This document shows positions 37,868-56,064 of a DNA stretch of 64,000 bases, in pieces (the first letter of the stretch is position 1; every line of letters starts with the position of its first letter). This stretch comes from Rossellomorea marisflavi. Lineage in GTDB: Bacteria; Bacillota; Bacilli; Bacillales; Bacillaceae_B. The stretch spans positions 848,001 to 912,000 of the forward strand of contig NZ_CP047095.1 of assembly GCF_009806575.1 (NCBI RefSeq), read 5' to 3'. A program made the translations under genes and the position numbers. The notes beneath the pieces were generated by a model that worked only from the letters and a program-made list of their open reading frames with translations, did no database searches and was not told where the DNA came from.

Positions 37868-37917
37868 AAAAAAAGAAGTAATAGCCTAAATATATTTTGG
37901 CTATTACTTCTTTTTTA
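37868..37917. terminator. Bidirectional terminator at the end of the dnd operon
   Basis: Perfect 15-bp stem AAAGAAGTAATAGCC / GGCTATTACTTCTTT flanked by A-run and T-run, overlapping the dndA stop codon. It would end minus-strand dnd transcripts. Confidence 0.8.
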
Positions 37918-39033: not shown

Positions 39034-39047
39034 AAGTATTGGCCCCT

Positions 39048-39419: not shown

Positions 39420-41404
39420 TGGTTAACCTCCTGTCCCTTAAAAGAAAAGTAATTATCTAAGATGCTTGTTTCTTTCTTATTAACATCGAAACTAAGGGTG
39501 TATTCCTTAGCGGTGTACTCATGTAGAAGACTATAGGTACCTTCGTCAATCTCAGAATCTGTCGAAAGCACAATCGCTTGGCGACCACAGTTAGGAATAT
39601 AGTGCGTTAAGATACTCTGTTTGTGGGTACGATCTAAACGTCCAAGTAGCGTATCAAATATAAATGGAACATTTCGTCCAGAGCATTTGAAGATCGCCCA
39701 GATAATTGAAAGTAGAAGGATTTCCTTTTCACCTGCAGATAGCGTGGATTTTTCCATTGCTTCGTTTTGTTGATCAAATAAATAGACCTCAAATGAAGAT
39801 GGATCAATTTTAATAGAGGCAATATAGTTTCTTTTCCTCATAAGCTTATTAAGCATTCTTAGTGCTTCCATTTGGACTTCTTGTAATTTCTTTTGAAGTT
39901 GGATTCTACGAAATTTTTGACTCAATGAAATGATTTTCTGAGATTCTACAAACGAATTTCTGCTCTTTTCTTGATCTTTAAACTTATGTTCGATCGACTC
40001 AATTTGATTGTTAATTTTACTTAATTGAACTTGTTCTTCATGAAGTTTTACTTCGATAGCGTCTATTTGCTGAGATAACTGATTTAATTGACGATTATAT
40101 TTTTCCATATCAGAGACCATTATGCTAAATTCAGAAGAGGAATCGTTCAACTTCAGCTTGCTTTTAAGATTTTGAATTTCTTTTAACTTTGTTTTATTTT
40201 CCTCAATGGTGGTAATGTGCAAATCTAGTCTTTGCGTACTAACTTCCTGATAAATATTTTCTACCTGATTTCCTTCGGAAAAGGATGCTCCGTGAATAAG
40301 TCCAGTTTCATCAGAAGGTTTAACGGTAGAAAGAATTTCATTTTTAAGGATTTCTTCCGCATCTTGATTATTTGATGAGATTGATAACTGTTGCAAAATG
40401 TTTCTAATCTTGTCTTGAGTTAATTTTTCATCCAAAGAAGAGTAGAGTTGAAACTTTTCTTCGTTAATCAGTTGCTCTCTGGTATCCGTTACAAGATCCC
40501 TTACTAGGAAGAAAGGAAGCATACTAGAGACAAAATGTTTAATGCGTTCTTGATTTTGTTTACGCTCATTTTCTAGCTCATTAATAGAAGAATGAATTTC
40601 TTCACGCTCGTCTCTGATTAGTCCACCGTGTATTTCAAAGTCATTTTTAATTCGAGAATATTCTTCCTCCACCTCATTTTTAGATTGTGACAGTCTTTCT
40701 ATCTGTTCATTTAAGGATGAGATGGTTGAGACGTGATTGTTTTTCACTTCTCTTAATGATATAAGTTCTTTTTCTTGTGTGTTTAATGAGGATATATTTT
40801 CTTTTTGTTGGCTATAGATATCTAGATCTTTTTCCATTACTTCAAATAGATCGAGATTAAAAAGAACATTGGTTAGTTTCTCAATATAACTCGAAAGAAG
40901 GTTATTGTTGATAATTCTTGAAATCTCTTCTCCATCAAATAAGCATAGGTCTAATAGATGAGGAGGCATTATTTCTTTTAATTTTGATTGGAATACTTCT
41001 TTTTCGTAATCATTTAAGTATTTACCATCTTGTAGGACATCGAGTGTTTCTTTAACGGATTTATTTTGGTATTTCCATGCTCGATAAAGAGAGTATTCTT
41101 TCTTCGTCAAATCATCAATAAGATCAAAATCAAGGCGTAGGCGGAAGTTATTTTCTCCATTTACTTTTGCAGAGTAGTTAAGTATAGAATCAACCTTTTT
41201 AAGGTATTCTTTGTTTTCAGTTTTGTAACCAAAACCAAAGGAGCCAAAAAGCCCCATCTTTATGGAGTTGAGAAGTGTAGTCTTCCCAACTCCATTTTCT
41301 CCACCAATTAAAACCGTATTTTTTTCTGGAGATGTAGAGAGGTCAATAGTATGCATTCCGCGGTAGGGACCTATGTTTGTTAGGTGAATCTTCTTGAGGT
41401 ACAT
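39416..41404 (-). CDS. dndD: DNA sulfur modification protein DndD (SMC/Rad50-like ATPase)
   Basis: 662 residues. Walker A GGENGVGKTTLLNSIK (about residue 34), two long coiled-coil arms (about 180-280 and 390-520), ABC signature STLSAGEKEILLLS (about 550) and Walker B PFIFDTLLGRLDRTHKQSIL (about 578): the SMC/RecN plan of DndD, thought to use ATP to open or remodel DNA so that DndC can replace a phosphate oxygen with sulfur. Lies 17 nt downstream of dndC and overlaps dndE. Confidence 0.93.
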   Translation of the reverse strand: MYLKKIHLTNIGPYRGMHTIDLSTSPEKNTVLIGGENGVGKTTLLNSIKMGLFGSFGFGYKTENKEYLKKVDSILNYSAKVNGENNFRLRLDFDLIDDLTKKEYSLYRAWKYQNKSVKETLDVLQDGKYLNDYEKEVFQSKLKEIMPPHLLDLCLFDGEEISRIINNNLLSSYIEKLTNVLFNLDLFEVMEKDLDIYSQQKENISSLNTQEKELISLREVKNNHVSTISSLNEQIERLSQSKNEVEEEYSRIKNDFEIHGGLIRDEREEIHSSINELENERKQNQERIKHFVSSMLPFFLVRDLVTDTREQLINEEKFQLYSSLDEKLTQDKIRNILQQLSISSNNQDAEEILKNEILSTVKPSDETGLIHGASFSEGNQVENIYQEVSTQRLDLHITTIEENKTKLKEIQNLKSKLKLNDSSSEFSIMVSDMEKYNRQLNQLSQQIDAIEVKLHEEQVQLSKINNQIESIEHKFKDQEKSRNSFVESQKIISLSQKFRRIQLQKKLQEVQMEALRMLNKLMRKRNYIASIKIDPSSFEVYLFDQQNEAMEKSTLSAGEKEILLLSIIWAIFKCSGRNVPFIFDTLLGRLDRTHKQSILTHYIPNCGRQAIVLSTDSEIDEGTYSLLHEYTAKEYTLSFDVNKKETSILDNYFSFKGQEVNH

Positions 41405-41421
41405 AATTCGTCTCCTAAATC

Positions 41422-43011
41422 TTATAAGTGTAAATAATCTTGTTTAAGTACTTTGGACATTTCTTCCATAAGTCCTCTTCGTACTTTTAAACCTGAAAAG
41501 TCTTTTTCAACAAAAAGAAGTTTTTTGATGACTTTAATGTCCACTTTGTATTCTTCGCATAGCAATTCAAGATCAGAAATTTGGTCATTATTGAAAAGTG
41601 GGCGATCATCTAGCTCCCATTCCAGGTCGTGTCCAATCGCTTCCTTAAAGATGGAAGGAACGTGATCTTCCCATTCCCCAGCTTTATACCAAATTTTCCT
41701 AATTGCTTTTAGTTCTTCTTCTTTAATTAATTCATAGTTTGGATCATCTGGATGTTGAAGTTGTTTCTGGGTTTTAAGAAGTCGTTCGAGAATTTCTCTG
41801 CGAGCTTTCATTGTGAAAGGCCCTAGTCCAAGCTGCGCGTATTTTTCTTTATTTGTTTCTTCATCTACGTAAGTAACCAAAATATTGTGGCCTTGTTCAG
41901 TACTAAGGTCAATATTGTGTTCATCAAGATATGATCTTAGGTGTGCTTTAGGGACGATGAAGTAGTTTTCATCATTAATTTCAACTAATTCCTTTGGACG
42001 GCTACCTTTCTTAGGAATATGGTGGTATTCCTTCTCGTCGATCATTTCAACGAGAATATCTCTAAAGTAGATTTGACCGTGCTTACGATATTTCATTCTC
42101 ATTGTTCGGTCATCCCTAATAGCAGAGAGCCAGTTTCTAAAGTTTAACAATGGCTTCATCCAATCGTGTCCAGTTTGAATGAATCCTGAAAGTGCCTTGT
42201 CTTCATTTACAACGGTACAAACCCAGCAACCAAATCGACTATTTCCACATGAACCTGCTGTATCTTTTACCGTTTTATCTACGACTAACGGACATTCCCC
42301 GCTGCTTGAATCTTGGTAAAGTCTATGTAGTTCGTAGTTGTCGTCTCCCCAAGGAGATGGATTGTTTAGTAAGTAATCCCATACGTCATCTAGATCAAAT
42401 GATTTGATAGGGGCATATACATAGGCATTAGATAGCGTTGAGTGCCGCATTAAAACTTTACCTTCTACTGTATGAGATTTTATAACATTTGCTCTAGTGG
42501 CACTCTCATCTTCACGTACGCCCAATACCATAATGACTTCACCAAAAGAACTCACTTTATCAGTAATAAATTGATTAGCAGGATCAATTTTTAAACGATC
42601 AGTACACCAACGGAACTGTTGGTTAGGGGAGGGGTACCCTTTTCCAATAATGTTGTACCAAAAAGACTGCTCTACAACTGGTTTGACTTTGTGTGTTTCT
42701 ATTGGCAACCCTAATTCTAATGCTTTCTCCTGAACCTTACGAAGTGTCTGGTTAATGGATTGAATAATGAGTGGAGTTTCCACGAGTGTATCAGATGAGA
42801 TTACATATATTTTTTTATGCAATTTTTCAGGTGGTAGCTGTTTTAGTGCTTCGAATACAAGTTGTACAACGACGGTAGAGTCTTTACCCCCGCTATAACC
42901 TACAACCCATGGACGGTCATCTGAAAGATAGACATCTATAATTTGTTCTTTTGCTTTATCAAGAACTGATTTTTCATCAGTAAAGAGGCTAGATATAATT
43001 CCTTCGTTCAT
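41422..43011 (-). CDS. dndC: DNA phosphorothioation ATP-pyrophosphatase DndC
   Basis: 529 residues. PAPS-reductase-like P-loop VGYSGGKDSTVVVQLVF (about residue 38) for ATP pyrophosphatase activity, and cysteines in CGNSRFGCWVC (about 255-264) plus upstream GECPLV that can hold a 4Fe-4S cluster. DndC transfers sulfur to the DNA backbone after activating the phosphate. Stop and start of dndC and dndB are 1 nt apart. The region after the cluster (about 300-529) is DndC-specific. Confidence 0.95.
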   Translation of the reverse strand: MNEGIISSLFTDEKSVLDKAKEQIIDVYLSDDRPWVVGYSGGKDSTVVVQLVFEALKQLPPEKLHKKIYVISSDTLVETPLIIQSINQTLRKVQEKALELGLPIETHKVKPVVEQSFWYNIIGKGYPSPNQQFRWCTDRLKIDPANQFITDKVSSFGEVIMVLGVREDESATRANVIKSHTVEGKVLMRHSTLSNAYVYAPIKSFDLDDVWDYLLNNPSPWGDDNYELHRLYQDSSSGECPLVVDKTVKDTAGSCGNSRFGCWVCTVVNEDKALSGFIQTGHDWMKPLLNFRNWLSAIRDDRTMRMKYRKHGQIYFRDILVEMIDEKEYHHIPKKGSRPKELVEINDENYFIVPKAHLRSYLDEHNIDLSTEQGHNILVTYVDEETNKEKYAQLGLGPFTMKARREILERLLKTQKQLQHPDDPNYELIKEEELKAIRKIWYKAGEWEDHVPSIFKEAIGHDLEWELDDRPLFNNDQISDLELLCEEYKVDIKVIKKLLFVEKDFSGLKVRRGLMEEMSKVLKQDYLHL

Positions 43012-43012
43012 G

Positions 43013-44110
43013 TTAATTATCCCCTTGCTTAAATTTATTCTCTAATTGAACCTCATGTTCTAGAAGCGGAAGTTGTAGAAGAGATTTAATTTTATTTGTT
43101 GTTAACTGGATTGTTTGATTGTTTTTTTGGATCCTTCCATTCTGGTTAAATGCTCTTCCTAGCCAGTGGTCGGTGTTTGAACGGTTCCAATCGACTGTTG
43201 ATAGGGCTTCAATATAAGTCTTCCAGTCTTCAGAGTGATATTCTCGTAGATATCTTCCCAGTAATCCTATTGCCTCGATAAAAACCCCATGTCCTACAAT
43301 AAAGTTAGCTCTTAAATCTCTGGGAGATAATTTTTTGTTCAAGATATCCTGCCACTCTACGATACTATTGGTAAGAACTTTCCAAAATTCTAGCAAGAAC
43401 TCTTTGTCTTCATCGGAAATTTGATCCCCCTTGGCCTTCCCAAGAAGTCTCAGATTTGTATTAAATACATGATTTAGCGCTAAAATCTTGGGTGAGTTCT
43501 TAGATAGTGAGACTCGTTCACGGTCTGTATATCGTTTCAGTAAAGGGATCTCACTGACTAACTCTTTCGTAACGAGAGCTAATTTATCACGATGATCGTA
43601 AAGAATACCAATGGAAGAGGTTGTATTTACTGCATGGCGATTGAGGTCGGAGAAAATCTGCTGAGATTTGGTCAATCCCTCATCATGATAAAAGACTACC
43701 GAAATGGTTTCGGAACCAATCTCCGGTGCAGTTTTAAGAGCTTCTTCGATGGCTGCCCGACGATGTTGACCATCATTTATGAGAAATCTAGCATCCAATG
43801 AAATTCGCAACTGTCCTAAGTCTTTGGAGGAGGGTTCTTGTCCAAACGGAATGAACTCCAAATCTCCGTCAATGGAAGCTGTTAAAGATGAAAAGACATA
43901 ATCTCGATGATTTTCTACAATATAATTCGTTATTTCAGGTATGCGGCTCTTATTGAGAATACGTTGAGCACGGTGCTCAGGTGGTATCTCATCTTCATCA
44001 AATAGAAAAATCTTTGGAATGATTCTTAAAGGGCACATTGCCACATAGTACTCTTTGTCTGCTTGAATTCCTTTTATGGCAGGGAAAGTATAACTAAATG
44101 CTGCATCCAT
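43013..44110 (-). CDS. dndB: DNA sulfur modification protein DndB (DGQHR domain)
   Basis: 365 residues from ATG 44110, preceded by GGAGG 8 nt upstream; a longer frame to 44143 lacks a ribosome site. The family motif DGQHRRAAIEEAL is at about residue 110, with ILYDHRDKLAL and FSDLNRHAVNTTSSIG also typical. In other systems DndB is a transcriptional regulator of the dnd genes and affects which sites are modified. First gene of the minus-strand operon, with a good promoter at 44151-44179. Confidence 0.92.
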   Translation of the reverse strand: MDAAFSYTFPAIKGIQADKEYYVAMCPLRIIPKIFLFDEDEIPPEHRAQRILNKSRIPEITNYIVENHRDYVFSSLTASIDGDLEFIPFGQEPSSKDLGQLRISLDARFLINDGQHRRAAIEEALKTAPEIGSETISVVFYHDEGLTKSQQIFSDLNRHAVNTTSSIGILYDHRDKLALVTKELVSEIPLLKRYTDRERVSLSKNSPKILALNHVFNTNLRLLGKAKGDQISDEDKEFLLEFWKVLTNSIVEWQDILNKKLSPRDLRANFIVGHGVFIEAIGLLGRYLREYHSEDWKTYIEALSTVDWNRSNTDHWLGRAFNQNGRIQKNNQTIQLTTNKIKSLLQLPLLEHEVQLENKFKQGDN

Positions 44111-44127
44111 ATATATAACCTCCACTT

Positions 44128-44179
44128 TACGTACGTATTCCAATGAGAATATTATATACTCTATTAGCTAGATCTTCAA
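44128..44179 (-). promoter_or_regulatory. Promoter of the dndBCDEA operon with nearby palindrome
   Basis: Read on the minus strand: TTGAAG (44179-44174), 17-nt spacer, TATAAT (44156-44151). Between it and the dndB start lies the palindrome TACGTACGTA (44128-44137), a possible binding site for DndB or another regulator. I found no equally good promoter for dptF in 44180-44302, although AT-rich TTAAAATTATTAC precedes it. Confidence 0.65.
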
Positions 44180-44302
44180 TAATAGACGAACCTTTATTCG
44201 CCTTTTCTAAAAAAACGATAGATATTTAGAGGGTTATCCAAATTTTTGGGTGACATATATGTTAAAATTATTACAAAAGAAATAGGCCGGAGATGATTAA
44301 TT

Positions 44303-46588
44303 TTGACTACAAATGACCAGTATTTTCTGAGTTTCATAGAACCAGTTAATCAGGTAGCTGCACAAAACGCGAAGAAAATGGAAGAACTAATATATGAGGA
44401 CGCAGGGAGTTCTATTGTTAAAGCGAGATTATTCCTAGAGGCCATATTAGATGAGGTTTATAAAATTGAAAAGCTTGAATCTTCATATGGACAATCTCTA
44501 TACGATAGAATTTCGTATCTTACACGCAATGAGTACATAGACCGTAAGATTCAACAGTCTTTTGACACAATTCGTTTATCAGGGAATAAAGCCGCACATG
44601 ACGGAAACTTCAATGACATAACGGCTGCTTTTAAACTGCATAAAGAAATGTACCATATTGCTGTTTGGTTTGTTGAGGTTTATACCATAGACCAAGTAAA
44701 GATTCCGATTTACGAAGTGCCAAAACCTCCTAAGCCCGATGTGGATATTGAAGATCTTGTTCACCAAAAAATCCTACAACTTTTTGGGACGAATTCTATT
44801 GGCAAGGAGAATAAAGATGTAGGACCAGCTCCTATGGAAGTCCCATCAGATAATTCCAATGAGATATTCGAAAATAACTTGCCAGACGGAGAGAGTTTTC
44901 TCATAAGGGAATTAAGGCGTCTACAAGATTCTTCTCAAGAAGCGATTGAAAATGCGAATCAATTTAGTCGATTCAAAAACTATATGCACGTCGACCGTCA
45001 AATTCAATTAGATTTTGAGAAGATTTTAAGAGGTCGAGCAAATACAAATAAAGGCAATTTAATTTTGCTGTGTGGTAGCGTTGGGGATGGGAAATCACAT
45101 CTTCTTGCGTATTTGAAGGAAAACAAGAGCGAGTTACTAGAAGAGTACACAATTTATAATGATGCTACTGAAAGTTTTTCTCCAGGAAAAAATGCGATGG
45201 AAACTCTCGAGGAAGTGTTAAAAGGTTTTTCAGATGAACAAATCGACCAAAATCAGGATAAGATCATTCTTGCCATTAACATGGGGGTTCTTCACAATTT
45301 CATTAACGAAAAACATCAGACATATTCTTATACGAGGCTGAAGCAGTTTGTGGAAACTAGTGGTTTATTTTCTCCTGAAATTACAACGCACTTTTCAGAA
45401 GGGAATACAGATTTACTTAGTTTTGGTGACTATCATTCCTATGAATTGACTGAAAGTGGTCCAACCTCAAGTTTTTATCTTACTCTTTTTCAAAGGATTT
45501 TTTCTAAACATGAACTCAACCCATTTACCCTGGCTTTAGCTGAAGATGAGAAGAGAGACAGCAATACAATGGCTCACGAAAACTTTAGGATGCTTCAATC
45601 TGAGTTTGTCCAAAAGCAAATTGTGAATCTTCTAGTTGAAGCAATAGTCAAACATAAACTCGTTATATCAGCGCGGGCCTTTTTAAACTTTATTGCGGAT
45701 ATTATTCTTCCCGACGATGACGATCAAAGGCCAATTGAATTCATGTCTGAATTTGAAATCCTAAAAAACTCAGTGCCTACCTTGTTGTTTAATCGAAAGG
45801 AACGTTCGGGAATCTTACATGCCATGAGTAAATTAGACCCGATTCATAAGCGTTCTGTTCATATTGATCACATTGTCATTGAACTGAACACGCTTAACGA
45901 CTGGGATGGTCTTATCTCGGAACATATACACTCAGCAGCGGGAAAAGCTTGGCTAAAACCATTGGCCAATGATGCACAACTGATTGGTGAATCATTTAAC
46001 TTATTCTTTAGGACGTTTATCCGCCTGGCGTATTTGTCAAATCAATCATTCGCTACCAATTTGATAGACTCGAATTTTGCTTCATACCTTAGGTATCTCT
46101 ATAATTTCAATGTGAAAAATAAGGATTCAATCATTACTTTCTATGGGGAAATCAAATCCGCCATTTTTAATTGGAAAGGAACGCCTAAGAAAGATTACAT
46201 CTACGTTAACAAGGCAGATGAGAAATTCAGGCTTGCTCAACAATTGAATTTAAAGCCATATGCAAGTCATTTAAAGCATAGTTCAGAAGAGATCCTATCT
46301 TCATTCAAGTCAACGATTCTGATTGGCTATCATGATGGAGATTCATCAAATAGAGAATTTTTAGATATAGATTTTCCTCTATATGAATTACTGATGAAAG
46401 TACAAGAAGGCTATAGGCCAAACAAAAAAGATAAAGAGGATGCAATAAAGTTCGTTGAATATATTGAAAAGCTTATGACTTTTGGTGAACAAAGAAACGA
46501 AATGCTCATTCACTATCCAGATGATAAGAAATATTACAAGATCAAAAAAGACGACTTTGATCGCTTTGTATTTGAAAGGGAGAACTAA
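44303..46588 (+). CDS. dptF: Phosphorothioation-dependent restriction protein DptF, with N-terminal DUF4145
   Basis: 761 residues from TTG 44303 (GGAG 10 nt upstream). Residues about 40-120 form a DUF4145 domain (ARLFLEAILDEVYKIEKL, DRISYLTRNEYIDRKIQQSF, IRLSGNKAAHDGNF), found in many defence proteins. After a linker comes the DptF ATPase with Walker A LCGSVGDGKSHLLAYL (about residue 257). With DptG and DptH it forms the restriction arm that attacks DNA lacking phosphorothioates. Transcribed away from dndB; 2 nt separate it from dptG. Confidence 0.88.
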   Translation: MTTNDQYFLSFIEPVNQVAAQNAKKMEELIYEDAGSSIVKARLFLEAILDEVYKIEKLESSYGQSLYDRISYLTRNEYIDRKIQQSFDTIRLSGNKAAHDGNFNDITAAFKLHKEMYHIAVWFVEVYTIDQVKIPIYEVPKPPKPDVDIEDLVHQKILQLFGTNSIGKENKDVGPAPMEVPSDNSNEIFENNLPDGESFLIRELRRLQDSSQEAIENANQFSRFKNYMHVDRQIQLDFEKILRGRANTNKGNLILLCGSVGDGKSHLLAYLKENKSELLEEYTIYNDATESFSPGKNAMETLEEVLKGFSDEQIDQNQDKIILAINMGVLHNFINEKHQTYSYTRLKQFVETSGLFSPEITTHFSEGNTDLLSFGDYHSYELTESGPTSSFYLTLFQRIFSKHELNPFTLALAEDEKRDSNTMAHENFRMLQSEFVQKQIVNLLVEAIVKHKLVISARAFLNFIADIILPDDDDQRPIEFMSEFEILKNSVPTLLFNRKERSGILHAMSKLDPIHKRSVHIDHIVIELNTLNDWDGLISEHIHSAAGKAWLKPLANDAQLIGESFNLFFRTFIRLAYLSNQSFATNLIDSNFASYLRYLYNFNVKNKDSIITFYGEIKSAIFNWKGTPKKDYIYVNKADEKFRLAQQLNLKPYASHLKHSSEEILSSFKSTILIGYHDGDSSNREFLDIDFPLYELLMKVQEGYRPNKKDKEDAIKFVEYIEKLMTFGEQRNEMLIHYPDDKKYYKIKKDDFDRFVFEREN

Positions 46589-46590
46589 AC

Positions 46591-47997
46591 ATGGGGCATC
46601 TAAATGTGGATGATCTGAAAGATCATCTATTTACAAAAAATAAGCATGATGTGGGGAATGTATTTGACATTGTCCCTTTCCTAACTAAGAGAACAGCCGC
46701 AATAAAAGGGAACTTTAACAAAGTATTAGGTGAATTTGTTAGATATAATTCATCAGTTGAGTTAGATCCAAGTGCTTATTCAGAGATCGATACTTTTACC
46801 ACTGAGCATAAGAATAAATATAGTGAACATATTGCAAGTCAAGTAGAGTTTCAAGGTGATGGGGATGCTGAATATGATTTCATTAGGTTTTTAGATCGTT
46901 ATTTGGCCAGTGATGACAAGATTAAACCGATCCATCCGCATCTGTTCAACTACATTCCAGTTGAGAAGAAGTATGAAAACGAGTTTGGGAAATATGCACA
47001 ATTCCTATCTGAAACCCTTGCATCAAATAATGAGTCCATTAAAGACATATTTAAGAGCAAGAAGTCTGATAATATTTTGACCGATTTAATCTTAAATCAG
47101 TTAAATGGATTGCGACCTACAAAAGAAAAAAAGCAACAGTATCAATCTCTTCTTCCACCGTTGGTGCAGCGTTATCAGGAAGATGTTCTATTCTTAAGCA
47201 AACACACAGATTATTTTCTAGCCTCATTTCCGCTTCTCACACATTTCTACACGCTTATGTATGCAATGCAGCTAGTGTTTAAGTTTGAACAGTTCACAAA
47301 TGCGGATTTCAATCAAGTGACCCCACTCTATTTTGCATTGGATTGGGAGCCGATTAATAAAAGAAGACGCGCAGCGGATGAGGTGGATGGATACAAGTTC
47401 ATTAAGGGGAACGCAAGAAAACTATTTCCCCATATTCATACTATCTCTCACTTAAGTCATAACGATATGCGAGTTGCTGAAGAGGGACCATATGCTTTTA
47501 CGCCATATAGCTCGTTGTATCAGTCTATCCAAGAAAAAGGGGACGAATATGAACAAGAATTTTTAGCTGACGTGAAACTGTGGATCAAAGAATATAAAAA
47601 TCTACCATTTACACAGGTGAATATTGAAGATCAGTCCACTACTCTTCCTGAAGCATTTAACATTCTATTCAAATGCTTAGAGGCCGGTACAAGTAGCAGC
47701 GTTGCTGACAAATTTGGTAAGAACATTGATGATTTGGCATCTGATCATTTTATTAAGAGCAGGGGAAGCATTGGGAATGTACTGAATATCAAACATGACC
47801 TCCTACATTTGATGACGGCAGTAGCAGTAAAGGACAAGCGTATCCCTCTTAACGATCTTTTCGACGAATTTGAGAAGCGCGGAATTGGTCTTGACCTGCA
47901 TTCTAAAAAAGAAGTCATGAACGTTTTAGACAATCTAAATATTATAGACAAAAAAAGTGATAGTGGTGATGCTCAATATGTCAAACCAATTTTATAA
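46591..47997 (+). CDS. dptG: Phosphorothioation-dependent restriction protein DptG
   Basis: 468 residues with no signal peptide, membrane segment or recognised catalytic motif, which is usual for DptG. Opening MGHLNVDDLKDHLFTKNKHDVGNVFDIVPFLTKRT and a C-terminal winged-helix-like part (about 400-468: KRIPLNDLFDEFEKRGIGLDLHSKKEVMNVLDNLNIIDKKSDS) are visible. Assigned mainly by position between dptF and dptH and by length. AAGGGAGAACTAAAC precedes ATG 46591. Confidence 0.85.
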   Translation: MGHLNVDDLKDHLFTKNKHDVGNVFDIVPFLTKRTAAIKGNFNKVLGEFVRYNSSVELDPSAYSEIDTFTTEHKNKYSEHIASQVEFQGDGDAEYDFIRFLDRYLASDDKIKPIHPHLFNYIPVEKKYENEFGKYAQFLSETLASNNESIKDIFKSKKSDNILTDLILNQLNGLRPTKEKKQQYQSLLPPLVQRYQEDVLFLSKHTDYFLASFPLLTHFYTLMYAMQLVFKFEQFTNADFNQVTPLYFALDWEPINKRRRAADEVDGYKFIKGNARKLFPHIHTISHLSHNDMRVAEEGPYAFTPYSSLYQSIQEKGDEYEQEFLADVKLWIKEYKNLPFTQVNIEDQSTTLPEAFNILFKCLEAGTSSSVADKFGKNIDDLASDHFIKSRGSIGNVLNIKHDLLHLMTAVAVKDKRIPLNDLFDEFEKRGIGLDLHSKKEVMNVLDNLNIIDKKSDSGDAQYVKPIL

Positions 47998-50900
47998 TTA
48001 CATTGTATCTACTGTACTAGACTATTTTAAGAACACAAAAATAAAAGCAGGAAACAGATACTACCTCCAATTAGATAGTCAAGTTGAACTAGAACTGTTA
48101 ATTGATGCCCTAAAAGAAATAAAAAACATTCAATCCTTTCACTATAAACATGAAGAAGGTGAAGAATATCAAACCTTCTCCATTCCATTTAACAATGTCA
48201 ATCTGGTAGTAGCATATACTTCAAGCCATGTGACTCCAGATTTCCTAGTGACGCTAAGGAACTTAGTAGGTGAACAAAAAGATGCTTGGAAGAATACAGC
48301 GTTGTTAAGTATAGTTTCTGAGCAATTGGATTCAATCCAAGGAGGAAGCAGTGATCTCCAAAAAGAAGGGATGCCCCTCCACCTAAACTCCATCTTTTCA
48401 AATCTGAAGATCAAGATTGAGAATAGCGTTTTAGATAAGGTAGATCAAATTATCCTGCAAGATAATCTGGAAAATTTATTAAAAGAGCAAGCCTATCAAC
48501 AGATTACACTGTTTGACTTTGAAGATCTCTTTAACACTTTGGAAAAAGGATCGATCGAAAATCAAGAGTATCATAAATTTGGACTGTTTAAAGATCCTGA
48601 TTTGGGATCATTCAAAGGAAAAGATCAACAAAGCCGCTTGGATGATAACCGAGAACTTTTCGATTTTGTAAAAAGAGTTCACGATCTAGGATTGGGCGAT
48701 GACGAATTAGAAAAGAAGTTCTTGCCTAATGGTGTAAAAGAGCTTAAATCTGAAGACTGGATGGAAGTGTCTTTCCCTGAAGTGCACAAGTTGCACAAAG
48801 AATTCACTGAGACTACAGGTAACAAGAAAGTGGATCTCCAAGACATGAAAGCTATACATAAGCTTCCATTGTGGAATAAACCTCATAAAGAAACCAAGGC
48901 AGGTCATCGAAAAAGGCATATTATTGTCTTTAATCCTGAGCAGTTAGATGAAGTAAATCTTCATGCTCACTTTGAGATGCAAGGTGTAAAGAGTCTTTCG
49001 AAAAACTTCCTTACAGTTCAAAACCAATTCAAATCGGTATGCGAAGTGGATGTGAAAAAATCAAATATAGAAATTTCAATCAAAGCTAAGAAAAACCAAG
49101 TAACCTTTGCTAGATTCACATACAAGCATGATAAGAAGGTCAGTCTTGGTGTTGATTGTTTGATAGCAGTCGTACCATTGGAACCAATCGACTTAGAGAA
49201 CTTTAAGTCCAGCTATTCTGTGGATCCTGTTAAGCAAGTAGTCGGCCTGCAGTATGAAGGTGACCAGATTATCATGGGAAGAGGCTTGAAGAAAGAGGTT
49301 CAAGAAGTAGAAGCGAATGGACAAAATGTCCAGGTCTCTACTGAAAGTGTTGTGACAGTGAAGCCACTAGCAGAGGCATTTGATGATGATGATGAGCTTA
49401 AAATCAACTTAGTCTTTGATGAAGTGACCATACCGGTATTGCTGAGGAATGAGATCAAAGACTCCTTCCCAATCACAGGTCAGAGACTTTGGAAACTTAT
49501 CCGAGAAAAAGGACAGGATGTCCAGTGGTTGAAAGAAACCAATCGATTAGTACTAGAAAACAGTGAATTTTACCTTAATCCAGACTATAAACAATATTTT
49601 CAATGGGAAGATCAATGGGTAGAAGATGGTATAAAGCATGCCAAATTCGAGTCTGATCAATTAATGGCTGAAGATCTTAAGCTTAGCGACGATTTGAGAG
49701 AAGCCTACAGTCGTTTTATTACTCACTTTAAAGTGAATAATACGATTCCAAGTTTGACTTATGTATCTGAGACTTACGCTCAACGAGCAAAAGAATATAT
49801 TTCCGCCTATTTAAACGATATAGGATCGTTTAAAGATGGTAGTCCAGCTGGAAGAAAAGGAATGGACTTATTTAAGTTAGGAACCATTCAATCCAATGAA
49901 ATGATGTATTTAACCCCATTTCACCCACTCATGATTGCGTTTAAACTCAAGATTTATGAGTTATTAGGGAATGAAGAGGTGGACAATAGTGTGCTCAATC
50001 GATTACATCCGGATGCTCTTCTTCCGTTTGTTTATGATGAGAGGCAACAATTATTCAAATCTGAACATCAGCAATCAGCGTTAGAATGGCTGACTTTTAA
50101 GGAAGTACAGCAAGTGTCAGTATCAGATGCGAATCAGTTCCTCGCAAAAGTAGTAAGTGACAAGCTAGTCCAATTTAAAGAACACTTTTCGTACCTATTT
50201 ATTGATGAATCTTTGGCCCCCATACAAGTGAATATTATTCATATCATTAACGATCATGAAGCACTAAAAGGGATTCTTCAATGGATGCTTACTGTTATTA
50301 AAAACGATGGGATTGAAAAGCTAAAGCCAGTAGAAGTCACGCTATACCGCGATAGCGACACAGAGTCGGCATTTGATTTATTCGCTCGAACTGAATCGAT
50401 AGCAATATTAAAAGAACACTTTGATCTTAAGTTAAAATTTAATGAGTACGATGAAGAAGATGTCATGAAGAAGATAAGGGAAAAGCTATTTTTCTACAAG
50501 AAGAGTGAGAGTGAAGAGTATAAGTATGCTCACATATCCTTCTATAAGATGAAGGCTCAAGAGAGTTTTGCTGTTCAACCTATGAGTGAAATGGAAAGCG
50601 GTATCTCCATTGAGGGCCTTTATTCTAGTGTGCCATCTATGAAAGATGAAGAGAACTATAAAAGTGGTTTTGGCGTCAAATCATACACTGTAGAAGAAGA
50701 CAACGACGTATCCACAGTGTCTTTTTATGTGAACGAGCTAGCTGCCAATCTCCGAAACAGTGGGAATGACAGTTATCGTAAGGGGGAAGCAATCTTCTCT
50801 AGGACAACGACTACAGATGAAGAAGATTTAAAGAAAATCTTCTCTGCTTCTCATTGGGTTACCTTTGTAGATCCAACCATTGACCTTGAATACTTCAATA

Positions 50901-53212
50901 AGTACGATGATAACTTGGTTGTCATTCATTATAGTGATCAGTATTCTTCATCAAGCCGATATGATGCAATTACAGTAACAGATAAATCTGATCAATATTA
51001 TTCAGTCATTAAAGAGTTTCTCAATAATAAGGAAGTAGAGGGTACAAATCAGAATGTATTAAGTACTATTAAAGCATTCAATACCTTCAACGGAGAGTGG
51101 CTGTTGCGAATCATCGGTAGTAAAGGGCATTTTGATCGAGAAAAGTTAAGTATCATTTCGGCGATCAAATACTCTGTTTCTTACTTGGATCACCCGAATA
51201 TCCTGTGGGTACCCATCTCGCTTGAGGAAGTACTTAGAGTAGCCGGAGCAGTAAGTCTAAATAGATCAGATGGTGTCTTTACGGCTAAGAATTTAGGGGT
51301 GAAAGGTAGCCATAGCGATGACTTACTACTAATTGGTCTTGAGCAACTGGGTGAGAAACTCAGCTTGCATTTCTATCCTGTTGAAGTGAAGATTGGAATC
51401 AACAGTAGTGCAGTCATTGACAAGGCGAAAACACAAGTCAAAAAAACGAGAAAACTGTTATTTGAAACGCTCACAGGTGAAGTAGGGAATACATTCACTG
51501 GGAAGTTTTATCGTAACTTCTTCGCTCAATTACTAATTTCGAATGCGTTAAAGCTCGAGCAAAGTGAATTTTGGTCAGGTAAAGGATATTCATTACTTGG
51601 TGAGGTGAGGGAGAAGCTAGTTAAGGACCAATACAGTATATCTAGCAGCTTAGAACCATTTATTGGAGAAGGAGCTATACTTTCATTCAAAAAAGACCTT
51701 CATTACCGAAGCGCAGTGAATGATTCCAACATCCTTCAACTTAACTTTACTGAAAAAGACGGATATAGTGGACTTGTTCAACCAATTGTAGAAATGCGTA
51801 ATTGGGTACAAGAAAAAGAGACAGACTTTGTCAAAGAAGACTTACTCTCAGTAACATATGTTCCCTCAAAAAGTTCGGATCATAATGAACACCTGACATC
51901 TATAGTGGACCCTCCAGAACCGTATGGAGTATATCCTTCTCCAAACGGTGAAGATAATTCAGGAATGAAAGACCCGAGTGATGATGATCAAGAACAACCA
52001 GAGATAGTAAAACCCACAGTGCATCCAGATCCAAACCCAGAACCAAAACCAGAACCAAACCCAGAACCAGAATTAGCTGGCGGTCATGACTTAGAGCAGT
52101 CGAGAATCTTAATTGGGAAACCAGAGAAAACAAACCATAAGATCTACTGGGAATATGGAAATAAAGGATTGGCCAACCGCCATTTACTAATCTCCGGTAA
52201 GTCTGGGCAAGGGAAAACGTATTTTATGCAATGCTTACTTCTAGAAAAGTCAAAGTTAGGTATTCCAAGCATCGTTATCGACTATACGGAAGGATTCCTT
52301 CCAAACCAATTAGAAGAGGAGTTCGTCACCTTCATGGGTGATAAACTCAAGCATAAGATTGTCTATAGCGAGAAGCTACCAATCAATCCGTTTGAGAAGA
52401 ACATTCGAGACATCGGTGGGATTCAGCTACCCGAATCCAATACAGATGTAGCTGAACGGGTAAAAAGCGTATTCTCATCTGTCTATAAAAGTTTGGGGAT
52501 TCAGCAACAGAATGCAATCTATGAAGCCATTCTCAATGGTCTTGACCGATATGACGAAGAGATGAGTTTAGTGAAATTGAAGGAGATGTTGGAGGAAGAC
52601 GGAAGTAGCTATGCTAAAACGGCACTTTCTCAAATTCGTCCTCTGATCGACCGCAATCCTTTTAACAATGATCAGTCCCTCAAATGGAGCGATATTGTGA
52701 GAAGTGATGGGGAAGTTCACATCATCCAACTGACTGGATTCCCACGTGATGTTCAGTTAATGATAACTGAATTTATCCTATGGGATTTGTGGAATTACTC
52801 GGTAAGATACGGTAATAAAAATCAGCCAATGCCTGTCATTATGGATGAAGCGCAAAATTTGGATCACACCGAAAAGTCTCCTTCTGCTAGGATTCTGACA
52901 GAAGGTCGAAAGTTTGGATGGTCTGCATGGTATGCGACCCAATTCCTGAAGTCACAACTTGATGCGGGTGAGTTAGCTAGATTGCAAAATGCATCGCAAA
53001 AAGTATATTTCTCTCCGCCAGAACAAGAAGTATCAAACATTGCTGGCAGTCTGTCTAAAGACCCTGGTGAGAAGAAACAGTGGGAAGCCATTCTTTCAAC
53101 GTTGAAGAAAGGTCAGTGTATTGTTCATGGACCTATTCAAAACGATAAAGGAGAGCTATCCAATCCAGCGCCACATATTGTAAACATATTACCTCTAAGT
53201 GACCGGATTTAA
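47978..53212 (+). CDS. dptH: Phosphorothioation-dependent restriction protein DptH, HerA-like ATPase
   Basis: 1744 residues from ATG 47978, which overlaps dptG by 20 nt with GGTGATG upstream; an in-frame GTG at 47957 is possible. A very long N-terminal region (about 1-1340) of unknown fold is followed by a Pro/Glu-rich linker (about 1345-1375, repeated PNPEP/PKPEP). Then a HerA/FtsK-type ATPase: Walker A ISGKSGQGKTYFMQ (about 1406), Walker B PVIMDEAQNLD (about 1617), sensor-like WYATQF. It is the largest part of the DptFGH restriction complex and probably its motor or nuclease-activating component. A bidirectional terminator follows. Confidence 0.92.
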   Translation: MSNQFYNYIVSTVLDYFKNTKIKAGNRYYLQLDSQVELELLIDALKEIKNIQSFHYKHEEGEEYQTFSIPFNNVNLVVAYTSSHVTPDFLVTLRNLVGEQKDAWKNTALLSIVSEQLDSIQGGSSDLQKEGMPLHLNSIFSNLKIKIENSVLDKVDQIILQDNLENLLKEQAYQQITLFDFEDLFNTLEKGSIENQEYHKFGLFKDPDLGSFKGKDQQSRLDDNRELFDFVKRVHDLGLGDDELEKKFLPNGVKELKSEDWMEVSFPEVHKLHKEFTETTGNKKVDLQDMKAIHKLPLWNKPHKETKAGHRKRHIIVFNPEQLDEVNLHAHFEMQGVKSLSKNFLTVQNQFKSVCEVDVKKSNIEISIKAKKNQVTFARFTYKHDKKVSLGVDCLIAVVPLEPIDLENFKSSYSVDPVKQVVGLQYEGDQIIMGRGLKKEVQEVEANGQNVQVSTESVVTVKPLAEAFDDDDELKINLVFDEVTIPVLLRNEIKDSFPITGQRLWKLIREKGQDVQWLKETNRLVLENSEFYLNPDYKQYFQWEDQWVEDGIKHAKFESDQLMAEDLKLSDDLREAYSRFITHFKVNNTIPSLTYVSETYAQRAKEYISAYLNDIGSFKDGSPAGRKGMDLFKLGTIQSNEMMYLTPFHPLMIAFKLKIYELLGNEEVDNSVLNRLHPDALLPFVYDERQQLFKSEHQQSALEWLTFKEVQQVSVSDANQFLAKVVSDKLVQFKEHFSYLFIDESLAPIQVNIIHIINDHEALKGILQWMLTVIKNDGIEKLKPVEVTLYRDSDTESAFDLFARTESIAILKEHFDLKLKFNEYDEEDVMKKIREKLFFYKKSESEEYKYAHISFYKMKAQESFAVQPMSEMESGISIEGLYSSVPSMKDEENYKSGFGVKSYTVEEDNDVSTVSFYVNELAANLRNSGNDSYRKGEAIFSRTTTTDEEDLKKIFSASHWVTFVDPTIDLEYFNKYDDNLVVIHYSDQYSSSSRYDAITVTDKSDQYYSVIKEFLNNKEVEGTNQNVLSTIKAFNTFNGEWLLRIIGSKGHFDREKLSIISAIKYSVSYLDHPNILWVPISLEEVLRVAGAVSLNRSDGVFTAKNLGVKGSHSDDLLLIGLEQLGEKLSLHFYPVEVKIGINSSAVIDKAKTQVKKTRKLLFETLTGEVGNTFTGKFYRNFFAQLLISNALKLEQSEFWSGKGYSLLGEVREKLVKDQYSISSSLEPFIGEGAILSFKKDLHYRSAVNDSNILQLNFTEKDGYSGLVQPIVEMRNWVQEKETDFVKEDLLSVTYVPSKSSDHNEHLTSIVDPPEPYGVYPSPNGEDNSGMKDPSDDDQEQPEIVKPTVHPDPNPEPKPEPNPEPELAGGHDLEQSRILIGKPEKTNHKIYWEYGNKGLANRHLLISGKSGQGKTYFMQCLLLEKSKLGIPSIVIDYTEGFLPNQLEEEFVTFMGDKLKHKIVYSEKLPINPFEKNIRDIGGIQLPESNTDVAERVKSVFSSVYKSLGIQQQNAIYEAILNGLDRYDEEMSLVKLKEMLEEDGSSYAKTALSQIRPLIDRNPFNNDQSLKWSDIVRSDGEVHIIQLTGFPRDVQLMITEFILWDLWNYSVRYGNKNQPMPVIMDEAQNLDHTEKSPSARILTEGRKFGWSAWYATQFLKSQLDAGELARLQNASQKVYFSPPEQEVSNIAGSLSKDPGEKKQWEAILSTLKKGQCIVHGPIQNDKGELSNPAPHIVNILPLSDRI

Positions 53213-53214
53213 GA

Positions 53215-53255
53215 ATAAACGACCCCCCAGTGAGTCCACTGGGGGGGTCGTTTAT
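53215..53255. terminator. Bidirectional terminator between dptH and the second dndE-like gene
   Basis: Stem ATAAACGACCCCCCAGTG / CACTGGGGGGGTCGTTTAT with a short loop, A/T runs on both sides, exactly between the convergent operons and overlapping the stop of the minus-strand gene. Confidence 0.85.
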
Positions 53256-53620
53256 ATAATCATCAATCGGATATCTTCCATGGAAGTCTTACTTTCATTG
53301 ATTCTTTTGATCTCACGTAATCCTTGCTCTATATAGGCCAACATGTATTGGTGAAGTTCATCGTCATTCAACGAACGTTGAGCTTCATTGATGATCAGAT
53401 GTTTAAACAAGGTGAACTCTTGATGCTTAATAACATTATCGGGAATTGTCCATTTATTCCCTCCATTAATAGGATCTAGATTGGGCTCAGATTGACTGAT
53501 GGAAATACCTTTGGCTAGAGCTATTTTTACTGATTGAGGACGATCTATTTCGAGAAGTTCGGCGACTTCATCTAACATTTGTTTTCCTTCTTGAGATAAA
53601 TTCATTCTTTTATTAGACAA
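53252..53620 (-). CDS. Second DndE-like protein
   Basis: 122 residues, same length as DndE at 39048 and aligning with it over the whole chain: both have an N-terminal helix pair, a PxL/P-rich middle, and the end block EFTLFKHLIINEAQRSLNDDELHQYMLAYIEQGLREI against DYVFKALIRQHAKRNLSDEEYFPDYFNAHLERGIKLL. Identity outside this block is low. Lies 5 nt after a second dndD-like gene. Probably partners that ATPase on DNA; whether it serves modification or restriction is unknown. Confidence 0.75.
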   Translation of the reverse strand: MSNKRMNLSQEGKQMLDEVAELLEIDRPQSVKIALAKGISISQSEPNLDPINGGNKWTIPDNVIKHQEFTLFKHLIINEAQRSLNDDELHQYMLAYIEQGLREIKRINESKTSMEDIRLMII

Positions 53621-53625
53621 TCGAG

Positions 53626-55641
53626 TTACCTCCTTACAAAATCGAAGTAGCCATCTCGAATGACGGTATACTTCTTCTTCTCATCATAATCCAGCATGTA
53701 TTGCTTATACGATGATTTTTCCATAAGGCGAATGTACTCACCTGTAATTTCTGTATCTGTCGATAGAATGATGACCTGCTCACTCAAATGTTTGTAATAA
53801 TGGTTAATGAGGTGACTTCTGTGGTAGCTGTCAAGACGACCAAGAGGTGTATCAATCACCATTGGTAGGGAGAGGTCAGATACTTTGGTCAGTGCCCAGA
53901 TAAGAGCAGATGAGATCATTTGCATTTCACCGGCTGAACGTTCCTGAATACTGATCTCTTGCTTTTGATCACTATACAATCGTACTGAGTAAGTATTGAT
54001 ATCAAATTCGATCTTCCCAAACTCATCCTGTTTTCTAAAGAGGGTTTTGAGCATGCTTGAAAACTCTTCTTTAATAATCTCTGCTTTCAGCTTGGTAACC
54101 TCAGTTACATATTCACTCATAGCCCCTATTGTACTTGTCACATTGTTTAGTTGCTCAATCAAGTCTTCAGAATTGGTATCTTGGATGTTTAATCTTGTAA
54201 ACTTATTTTTGAGAGTCGTTCGCTCGTCTAGCAGTATTCTAAGCTTTTTTTTGACGGCTTTATTTTTGGAATCAATTTCCCCTAAACTTTTGGTGAGTAT
54301 GTCGATCTTGTCGTTTTCAGAATCAAGATTGACGGATTCTGGGGCATTTCTTATTTCGATTTCCAAGTCATTATATTCTTGAGACAGTCGTTCGATGGTG
54401 TTAATAAAACTGGTGATCGCATCCCGGCTTTTCACCTGTAATGAGGTGAGATACGAATAATCCTTGTTTGAAATGTCATGGATTTCATCGACTTCATTGG
54501 AAGGGTCAGTTTTAATATTATTCTCTTGCATCCATATCTCTTTTCCTAATGCTTTTATCTGATTTAGCTGTTCAGATGAAAGAGGTGGATTTATAGGCTG
54601 ATTAAGTAGTTGGTCCATAAAGCTTCTGTAAGGAGTGAGAGAAGCATTCTGTAGGATTTTCTTTTGGTTTTGCTCTTTTTCTATTTTCAGCGTTCTTTTA
54701 AGATTTGTGATTTTTTCATTTAAGATAATGTGAATAAGGTTCTCTGAGAAGAATTTCTTTAATTCAACTCTAGCCATATCTAACTGGGTTGCCACCTTAG
54801 TTTGATTCTTCACAATTACCTCTCTAGATTTAGAGTTTTTGGATAACTTTTCATTTCTATCTCTTTTAGCTGCATCAATTAATGATTGTTGATTTCTCAT
54901 TTTAGATAGGATCTTATCCTGTTTTGCTTCATATGCTGAAATGGATTGATCAAGTGCTGCTAAATCTTGCTCTGCATTCTTTAAAGAGGAGTGACTAGCT
55001 GAACGCGCTAGCTGTTTCTCAATCGAATGCTTAAGAGTGGTGAGATCTGTAATTAGCTGTTTATAGGATTCCATACCAGTAATCTTGTGAATAGCTTCCT
55101 TCATTTCTTGACTGTTCTGACGGAGGATAATATCTTTTACTTCTTCACCATCGAAGATAAAGAATGGTGCTGCGTAATAGGGAATGATTTTATCAATAAA
55201 TTTATTATAGGTATCAATGTTTTCAATTTGCGCAGAGCGTTTAAATTTCGAGCCAGCACTTCGAATGTCTAAGGAACGTTGTTCATGAGAAAGAGTTTTG
55301 TCCCGATTAAAAAACCATTTAACTTTTAACGTCCACTCTTCGCCTTTGTCAGTTTCTAAAGATAGTGAAACTTGACACTCTCGGCCACCCTCTGCAAAAA
55401 AGGTATTATTAATTACGTTAGAAAATAAGCGCTTATATTCTGGCGCTGACATACCACGTTTACCAAACAGTATGTAGAGAATTGCTTTAAGGATAGTGGT
55501 TTTTCCAGCTCCATTTAAACCGCCTAGTAGAATAATGTTTTTACCATTAGTTTGTCTTTCTTCTTCTGGAATATACAAGTCTACTTCTTGATGCCCGTAA
55601 TATGTCTTATAGTTAACGAATTCCAGCTTTTTTAGTAACAT
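53626..55641 (-). CDS. Second DndD-like SMC ATPase
   Basis: 671 residues with the DndD plan: Walker A LGGLNGAGKTTILKAI (about residue 38), coiled-coil arms (about 190-300 and 410-530), signature ERSAGEMQMISSAL (about 570) and Walker B PMVIDTPLGRLDSYHRSHLI (about 595). The PLGRLD ending matches TLLGRLD of the DndD at 39416, but overall the two differ strongly (for example FVNYKTYYGHQEVDLYIPEEE at the start), so this is an old paralogue. Followed by a DndE-like gene as in the main operon, with no DndC partner. Confidence 0.85.
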   Translation of the reverse strand: MLLKKLEFVNYKTYYGHQEVDLYIPEEERQTNGKNIILLGGLNGAGKTTILKAILYILFGKRGMSAPEYKRLFSNVINNTFFAEGGRECQVSLSLETDKGEEWTLKVKWFFNRDKTLSHEQRSLDIRSAGSKFKRSAQIENIDTYNKFIDKIIPYYAAPFFIFDGEEVKDIILRQNSQEMKEAIHKITGMESYKQLITDLTTLKHSIEKQLARSASHSSLKNAEQDLAALDQSISAYEAKQDKILSKMRNQQSLIDAAKRDRNEKLSKNSKSREVIVKNQTKVATQLDMARVELKKFFSENLIHIILNEKITNLKRTLKIEKEQNQKKILQNASLTPYRSFMDQLLNQPINPPLSSEQLNQIKALGKEIWMQENNIKTDPSNEVDEIHDISNKDYSYLTSLQVKSRDAITSFINTIERLSQEYNDLEIEIRNAPESVNLDSENDKIDILTKSLGEIDSKNKAVKKKLRILLDERTTLKNKFTRLNIQDTNSEDLIEQLNNVTSTIGAMSEYVTEVTKLKAEIIKEEFSSMLKTLFRKQDEFGKIEFDINTYSVRLYSDQKQEISIQERSAGEMQMISSALIWALTKVSDLSLPMVIDTPLGRLDSYHRSHLINHYYKHLSEQVIILSTDTEITGEYIRLMEKSSYKQYMLDYDEKKKYTVIRDGYFDFVRR

Positions 55642-55668
55642 CTTTTATCTCACCTTCAGTAATCATAA

Positions 55669-55857
55669 TTATTCATTGTTTTTAAAATGTAAATTTATAA
55701 GTGATTGATATTCTTTGATTCTAAATGTTTGGCTATTGTTTTCATAAGCTTCCTTCTCAGCCAATTTTACAAGCATCCTTCCTAATTTAGGAGGTACGCC
55801 ATTACGCGCACATACTCTAGACATCAACTCAATTTCTCTTCTTTTCAAATCTTTCAT
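55669..55857 (-). CDS. Small protein of the DndD/DndE-like operon
   Basis: 62 residues: MKDLKRREIELMSRVCARNG then VPPKLGRMLVKLAEKEAYEN. Basic, helical, with a possible DNA-binding helix pair and no membrane segment. Located 27 nt upstream of the second dndD-like gene, in the same direction. Public annotation has a family called DNA modification system-associated small protein next to dnd genes, and this may be one; that is recall. Function unknown. Confidence 0.65.
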   Translation of the reverse strand: MKDLKRREIELMSRVCARNGVPPKLGRMLVKLAEKEAYENNSQTFRIKEYQSLINLHFKNNE

Positions 55858-55987
55858 TAATAACCACCCAATACTATAATAGGATTAAATAGGAATTATT
55901 CTATACTCTTAAGTTTACTACAACTTTCTTCCTAGATATATAGTAGCTAAATTACAATTTGTACCTTTATACTACAGTTTGACCTTT

Positions 55988-56015
55988 TTGAATTTTAATA
56001 AGGGTGCCATAAAAT
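55988..56015 (+). promoter_or_regulatory. Probable promoter of the DUF819 gene
   Basis: TTGAAT (55988-55993), 16-nt spacer, TAAAAT (56010-56015), about 50 nt upstream of the start, in an AT-rich stretch marking the right edge of the dnd island. Confidence 0.45.
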
Positions 56016-56064
56016 TTATTTAGTATATATCTTTGAAGAAAATATTTCAAAAGGAGGCAACCCC

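Follow-up and report, generated by a model that had tools for sequence, protein, structure and literature searches.

Here we describe a three-gene operon in a 64,000-nucleotide stretch of Rossellomorea marisflavi DNA (NCBI RefSeq assembly GCF_009806575.1, contig NZ_CP047095.1, positions 848,001 to 912,000 of the forward strand; hereafter, the window). The operon encodes (i) a small protein (SP), (ii) a second DndD-like ATPase (DndD2), and (iii) a second DndE-like protein (DndE2), and lies beside the genes for phosphorothioate (PT) modification, dndBCDEA (the writer), and for restriction, dptFGH. By analogy with characterized systems, we propose that this trio is probably a restriction-side DNA-scanning module connecting the sulfur mark with an effector that can be exchanged.

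A third operon faces the restriction genes

The trio operon runs leftward, contains no other gene, and consists of the following (all on the minus strand):

55669–55857, minus: SP, 62 amino acids (aa), first gene of the trio; Pfam family PF20306 (Sp-DndD)
53626–55641, minus: dndD2, 671 aa, coiled-coil ABC ATPase; TIGR03185, 298 bits
53252–53620, minus: dndE2, 122 aa, TTG start; hhalign match to writer DndE

An original prediction, made by a model from the nucleotide sequence, had placed three genes here converging on dptH, and the open reading frames are indeed found at these positions, facing the end of dptH at 53212. The same prediction held that the neighbouring dndBCDEA and dptFGH operons are complete, which PADLOC and NCBIfam models support, and that there is no second DndC; a search with TIGR03183 returned a single DndC match in the window's genome.

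DndD2 belongs to an old, separate lineage

DndD2 scores 298.4 bits against TIGR03185, passing the DndD equivalog cut-off of 245.85, and contains VIDTPLGRLD, so that the DndD-like ending PLGRLD noted earlier is present. As a query against the window's genome, DndD2 retrieves two DndD-type genes: its own and that of the writer (DndD1). The two proteins are 25% identical. Relatives were collected by scanning species genomes with a DndD2 alignment; among the best 80 of at least 558 relatives, a score gap delimits a clade of 38 loci (L056–L093; L and G numbers are our handles for loci and genomes). Thirty-seven of these come from genera that, judging by the record titles, we take to be Bacillota, and one comes from a Thermosipho metagenome-assembled genome.

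A quick tree of 111 proteins places DndD2 in a clade of its own (37 rows; Shimodaira–Hasegawa-like approximate likelihood ratio test [SH-aLRT] support 100), with writer DndD and PbeC, the ATPase of the PbeABCD system, outside it. A branch with SH-aLRT 82 sets sixteen PbeC rows apart, again with DndD2 outside. The tree represents 32 of the 38 clade loci, leaves out 14 near-duplicates, and uses about one third of the ordinary-DndD loci (L094–L135). Four distant proteins that had been labelled DndD2 by a DndD2 profile grouped with ordinary DndD, and hence their label is wrong. A recent duplication of the writer pair is ruled out by this tree; as judged from sequence, DndD2 is an old separate lineage, as the original prediction had supposed.

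The best PADLOC model for DndD2 is named PbeC (992 bits). Identity with the CxC-bearing PbeC is nevertheless ruled out, both by the tree and by the absence of the CxC motif: the hook occurs in none of 46 DndD2 proteins, versus 17 of the 18 PbeC proteins found at the loci analysed (seven loci duplicating others were skipped). The ATPase motifs of DndD2 appear intact, with the Walker A pattern and the signature in 46/46 proteins and the Walker B pattern in 43/46. Against protein sequences in the PDB, a DndD2 profile matches Rad50 and SMC proteins, while writer DndD1 matches an SMC stretch only. Among PHROGs, DndD2 yields a weak SbcC-like match and nothing else.

DndE2 keeps the DndE fold and has departed from the writer residue pattern

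No PADLOC or NCBIfam model matches DndE2, and its score against the Pfam DndE family (PF08870; 23.6 bits) is just under the cut-off of 25; two relatives score 27.6 and 20.5 bits. Profile comparison with writer DndE gives a clear match (hhalign 97.5%, E 7e-12). The nearest crystal structures to an AlphaFold2 model of DndE2 (predicted local distance difference test score [pLDDT] 80) are those of DndE (4LRV, 7X4E and 5WTU). The 17 top PDB matches are all DndE chains, with probabilities of 0.97–1.00 and TM scores by query length of 0.54–0.67, none reaching an E-value below 0.001. The earlier alignment of the 122-residue protein with DndE thus holds, and on its predicted structure DndE2 is a DndE-fold protein with two ribbon-helix-helix-like units.

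Among 50 writer DndE proteins (divergent ones, below 60 bits, excluded), 12 positions are invariant: N27, R31, S37, R57, T61, G62, D65, F86, P87, H93, R96 and G97 in the numbering of the window's DndE1. Of these, G97 alone persists in all 41 DndE2 proteins; the others are retained by a minority (e.g., R31 in 8 and G62 in 11). An alignment of 26 writer DndE including four rows below 60 bits leaves seven invariant positions. DndE2 has near-constant residues of its own, for instance an R (40/41) and a K (39/41), each at a different site from those above. At the level of sequence, DndE2 has departed from the writer DndE residue pattern.

SP is a small, basic companion of DndD2

SP scores 35.5 bits against PF20306, above the cut-off of 27.2. 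With 13 K/R versus 8 D/E it is basic, in line with the original prediction. A separate small open reading frame lies directly upstream of DndD2 in 36 of the 38 clade loci; in the remaining two, both from Exiguobacterium, SP is fused to the N-terminus of DndD2 (SP profile, E 7e-10 and 5e-7 in the searched set). SP was assigned in L087, L090 and L092 by position and alignment, the first SP profile having given no score there. Its predicted structure is a three-helix bundle (pLDDT 86.5) that matched no fold in the PDB. A small protein of this kind has been described as disordered (PMC10853773); for SP, the structural model speaks for a three-helix bundle instead.

The small protein has also been proposed as a negative regulator (PMC10853773), which raises the possibility that the trio restrains or regulates, holding DptFGH inactive on the host or tuning its expression much like an immunity factor. 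Linkage of the trio to an effector in most loci would fit such a role, yet an ATPase clamp with a DNA-binding partner exceeds what a regulator needs, and the Pbe trio is reported to be required for attack rather than restraint (PMC6459918). We regard a restraining role as very improbable.

The trio largely follows the effector

When 44 DndD2 proteins are placed in a tree with five outgroup sequences, (i) rows from genomes with DptH make up one clade (34 rows, support 100/100), (ii) rows adjoining an AddAB-like pair (an AddA-like helicase and its partner, described below) make up a second, weakly supported clade (7 rows, 81/35), and (iii) three rows in line with PbeABCD genes make up a third (100/99), two of the three genomes also carrying DptFGH. 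With five labels, the outgroup being one, four changes are enough, which is the minimum. DptH took precedence in labelling, followed by the AddAB-like partner; G607 and G671 were given their own label after their gene order was known, and labelling them as DptFGH would add changes beyond four.

In a tree of 54 DptH proteins, the 34 with DndD2 and the 20 without it fall on opposite sides of a branch, with weak support (80/40). When two Exiguobacterium rows are removed, the other 32 of the 34 DndD2-linked rows group at 98/97. No DptH lacking DndD2, among those placed in the tree, lies inside the DndD2-linked clade. Most DndD2-bearing rows come from the DndD2 scan, and therefore their number is not a sample. 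Near-copies G434, G438 and G441 were omitted from both the DndD2 and DptH trees, and the DptH trees omit proteins shorter than 1200 aa (broken in G447 and G584, split by a fetch edge in G327; G245 is also absent). Judged from these sequences, the DndD2 lineage mostly agrees with the effector context; the two exceptions are G607 and G671 (below).

A natural swap is seen in one pair of genomes. Gottfriedia luciferensis CH01 and Bacillus sp. FJAT-25509 have 7.9 kb of DNA in common (92% identity), which starts upstream of dndB and stops close to the end of dndA; the encoded proteins are 97.6% (DndB), 97.5% (DndC), 94.3% (DndD1), 97.7% (DndE1) and 81.7% (DndA) identical. Past the writer in CH01, an AddA-like helicase and AddB-like protein diverge from SP-DndD2-DndE2; in FJAT-25509, SP-DndD2-DndE2 faces dptHGF. 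The two DndD2 proteins are 31% identical and the two DndE2 proteins 26%. This single pair argues that the trio was exchanged along with the effector, not the writer.

The swap bears directly on the main rival explanation, namely that DndD2-DndE2 is a second writer, using the single DndC to insert sulfur at a second motif or on a second strand. The near-identical writer operon is kept in the pair, while DndD2 and DndE2 differ along with the effector. Most of the invariant residues of writer DndE are gone from DndE2, and the analogous PbeC and PbeD are reported to be dispensable for the mark (PMC6459918). For a second writer speak the presence of DndC above cut-off in all 38 clade-locus genomes, a partial correlation between DndD2 and DndC (below), and the proposal that DndE diversity sets target motifs (PMC10853773). 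Weighing these, we consider a second writer unlikely, and a scanning module serving restriction the better account.

Co-variation across 27 genomes points in the same direction. DndD2 distances correlate with those of DptF (0.89), DptG (0.87) and DptH (0.86), and less with those of DndA (0.59), DndB (0.79) and DndC (0.78); writer DndD1 has the opposite pattern (DndC 0.90, DptH 0.70). With DndA, DndB and DndC controlled for, DndD2 and DptH retain a partial correlation of 0.74, a value reached in 0 of 2000 permutations. We rank this result below the swap, because gene adjacency can yield part of the correlation.

Gene partners and distribution

A whole-genome search found DndC above cut-off in each of the 38 clade-locus genomes. 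DptH was found in 31 of them (30 above cut-off), and DndE2 directly faces dptH in 22 of the 38 loci. Among the seven loci without DptH, L085–L090 have the AddAB-like pair (L088 also has PbeABCD genes) and L092 has PbeABCD genes. The second pair is thus not restricted to genomes with dptFGH.

Two samples were chosen independently of DndD2: one of the class (398 genomes) and one of the order (299 genomes). The class sample contains a DndD2-clade protein in 10 genomes, DndC above cut-off in 20, and DptH in 21 (19 above cut-off); three candidates were scored per genome, so misses are possible, and the DndD2 clade was taken as at least 306 bits, the next lower score being 187. All 10 DndD2 genomes have DndC and 8 have DptH. 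Eight genomes carry DndC without DptH, two of which have DndD2 (G209 and G353). In the order sample, which includes the window's genome, DptH occurs in 18 genomes, of which 11 have DndC and 10 have DndD2. Pooling both samples gives 38 distinct DptH genomes: of the 22 with DndC, 17 carry DndD2; of the 16 without DndC above cut-off, none does. The pair is thus missing from 21 of the 38 DptH genomes.

The constancy of DndC matters for another alternative, in which the trio is a self-standing anti-invader clamp whose loop or clamp action blocks foreign DNA, as in SMC-type defence complexes, the mark serving only to spare the host. Intact DndD2 ATPase motifs are compatible with this, as is the low-level resistance that remains when PbeBCD act without PbeA (PMC6459918). 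Against it, the trio was seen only with DndC (10/10 class-sample genomes and 38/38 scanned loci), and an effector was always near the trio where the contig allowed a view. We think this alternative improbable, and return to a module that serves an effector. A single outlier, G232, has an isolated DndD2 fragment of 151 aa (L212, G232:C8:189001-208000), excluded from the trio counts; the 19 kb examined hold no other dnd, dpt or pbe gene, and the fragment is probably a relic of a lost island.

A plasmid search returned one record, Priestia megaterium plasmid pBMG4 (L211, NZ_CP048887.1), in which SP-DndD2-DndE2 faces dptHGF. In its annotation, one trio gene is dndD, another encodes a hypothetical protein, and the third a DNA modification system-associated small protein. 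The plasmid is typed as mobilizable, and the trio/dpt block adjoins a DUF3883 gene and an HNH endonuclease gene.

The window's genome gave no PbeA match at E 1e-60; PbeA was found in 12 of the 39 genomes searched, the window's included. In eight of these (G439, G440, G449, G451, G452, G458, G459 and G461), which also carry DptH and DndD2, the match starts only at about model position 220–247; the missing N-terminal part is presumably the HKD nuclease region. Four other genomes have full-length PbeA, and G452 has a second, longer match. DptH is in pieces in G245, G584 and G447, in one case with an in-frame stop; these are decaying or mis-assembled copies.

A proposed role in coupling the mark to the effector

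Several features can be read from the sequences themselves: the parts of the trio, their intact ATPase motifs, the constant company of SP and DndC, the broad match of lineage to effector, and the lost DndE residues. Taken with the analogy to PbeBCD (PMC6459918) and to the DndD/DndE scanning core (PMC10853773), they make it most likely that the trio scans DNA and connects mark and effector. We envisage that (i) DndE2 would bind DNA, (ii) DndD2 would act as an ATP-driven coiled-coil clamp, and (iii) SP would serve DndD2 as a small helical subunit. The complex would patrol DNA and register whether sites bear the mark made by DndABCDE, and would then license or load the local effector—DptFGH here, the AddAB-like pair or PbeABCD in relatives. 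Mark reading, contact with or loading of the effector, and the order of these events are what we infer from the analogies.

Several observations weigh against this role. Firstly, DptFGH can do without the trio: five genomes of the samples (G134, G251, G349, G393 and G493) have DndC and DptH and lack DndD2, and six gamma-proteobacterial dndBCDE-dpt loci have no second pair in the stretch examined. Secondly, DndC is the sole partner found in all 38 clade genomes, which fits a writer role too, and the partial correlation of DndD2 with DndC, given DptFGH, is 0.55 (0 of 2000 permutations reach it). Thirdly, G607 and G671 carry a Pbe-type DndD2 although their DptH lies inside the DptH clade, and thus a distant trio can replace the trio within that clade. 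With them included, the correlation between DndD2 and DptH drops from 0.87 to 0.67, and the partial correlation, in a second run conditioned on DndB and DndC, from 0.74 (29 genomes) to 0.37. Fourthly, DndD2 often adjoins the effector genes, and linkage alone could explain their joint travel. Finally, the similarity of SP to PbeB is weak (hhalign 8–50%), and the Pfam SP model does not match the fused Exiguobacterium protein at E 0.01. The original prediction that the pair could have been adapted to the restriction side stands in part: the swap and the largely matching lineages favour it, and the constant companionship of the writer gene dndC does not.

In both G607 and G671, the genes lie on a single strand in the order dptFGH, SP, DndD2, DndE2, PbeA, PbeC, PbeD. 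G671 has an extra 428-aa frame between DndD2 and DndE2, and one in-frame stop in DndD2.

More tentatively, PT defence may possess a third, exchangeable arm: a reader cassette, SP-DndD2-DndE2, that turns the mark into a licence to attack and moves along with the effector it serves. The field has, to our knowledge, yet to settle how PT is read when potential sites are only partly modified. Should the trio be a reader, this could be tested in a Bacillus host by removing three small genes. The swap loci, with one writer and two effectors, each with a distinct trio, are a ready-made natural experiment.

Relation to known systems

The closest functional parallel is PbeABCD, in which PbeBCD resemble the trio in their order (small protein, ABC ATPase, DndE-like protein) and in their position beside dnd writer genes. 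According to Xiong 2019 (PMC6459918), pbeB, pbeC and pbeD are each required for protection against the virus SNJ1, and protection requires PT in the host; dndCDEA alone makes the mark, and SNJ1 grown with dndCDEA alone is PT-marked and escapes. The trio differs in that DndD2 lacks CxC and falls in a separate clade, the window's genome has no PbeA, and DndE2 is much nearer to writer DndE (hhalign 97%) than to PbeD (a weak 20%).

Second DndDE pairs near dnd genes of the same genome have been described (Rakesh 2024, PMC10853773), with the DndD/CxC ATPase and DndE presented as a DNA-scanning core. Opposed DndDE pairs are given there for 140 taxa, with 39 more having a CxC pair in between, and are explained as a DndBDE duplication after which DndB was lost. 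The pair in the window instead represents an old lineage and comes with an SP of its own, though our loci may overlap theirs. Compared with the writer complex DndCDE, DndD2-DndE2 share the DndD and DndE folds and the gene order; the trio operon has no DndC of its own, and DndE2 has lost most invariant DndE residues.

Tandem DndDE pairs (PMC10853773), the small-protein family (Pfam) and the Priestia plasmid annotation are therefore already known. Relative to the open-access literature found and the main text of PMC10853773, four things appear to be new: lineages linked to effectors, the swap, the fusion of SP with DndD2, and the AddAB-like pair beside the writer. That literature yielded no experiment on the trio. 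Sp-DndD and PF20306 had no match in the open-access literature searched; among the papers listed, no open-access title or abstract start other than that of PMC10853773 concerned a second DndD, and no open-access paper combined three of the four terms AddAB, UvrD, phosphorothioation and dndC. The words UvrD, RecB, AddA and Cas4 are absent from the main text of PMC10853773.

An AddAB-like pair adjoins the trio in relatives

In seven relatives, the trio is adjoined by an AddA-like helicase and a partner; such pairs were noted beside the trio, in genomes with dndC, at L054:1829-6746, L053:8689-14362 and L085–L090. The helicase is mostly about 690–740 aa; the two tested score 273 and 255 bits, far under the AddA cut-off of 708. 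The AddB-like partner, of 930–980 aa, has a C-terminal CxxCx5C motif in 7/7 cases, which we take to resemble that of AddB and Cas4. NCBIfam models gave no match for the two partners tested, Pfam and PDB sequences gave none for the one tested, and PADLOC gave only weak GajB or Cas4 matches. The pair is like AddAB in combining an AddA-like helicase with a CxxCx5C partner, and unlike it in the low helicase score. Lying beside the writer, the pair may be a further type of PT effector.

The island and its other genes

The dnd, dpt and trio genes all lie within an acquired block of about 18 kb (37.7–56.0 kb):

37736–56040, unstranded, ends approximate: acquired block, from comparison with G011 and G+C content
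37915–39033, minus: dndA, cysteine desulfurase; PADLOC DndA 460 bits, the SspA model scoring almost equally
39048–39419, minus: dndE1, writer DndE; TIGR03184 76 bits, cut-off 72
39416–41404, minus: dndD1, writer DndD; TIGR03185 534 bits
41422–43011, minus: dndC; PADLOC DndC 635 bits
43013–44143, minus: dndB; PADLOC DndB 525 bits
44303–46588, plus: dptF; TIGR03238 470 bits
46591–47997, plus: dptG; TIGR03236 284 bits
47957–53212, plus: dptH, convergent to the trio; TIGR03237 1233 bits
53223–53246, unstranded: stem-loop in the dptH/dndE2 gap, with T-rich tails on both strands; 10 pairs, 8 of them G-C

G+C content inside the block is 0.37, versus 0.47 and 0.50 outside. In G011, of the same genus, the window is matched up to 37736 and again from 56040, and the intervening DNA differs. 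G011 and G012 both carry other DNA at the site (about 26 and 11 kb, respectively), and hence it looks like a variable hotspot. The stem-loop is likely a bidirectional terminator, a call based on a consensus scan that gave four terminator-like sites in the stretch versus 1.5 expected.

A further arrangement was seen in 18 loci from several phyla (L096, L097, L099–L101, L103–L106, L108–L110, L117, L122, L127, L129, L133 and L135), in which a DndD-like ATPase is followed by a weak DptH (HerA-like) match, often with frames of about 910 and 456 aa upstream. Seven of these form a distinct group on a long branch of the quick tree.

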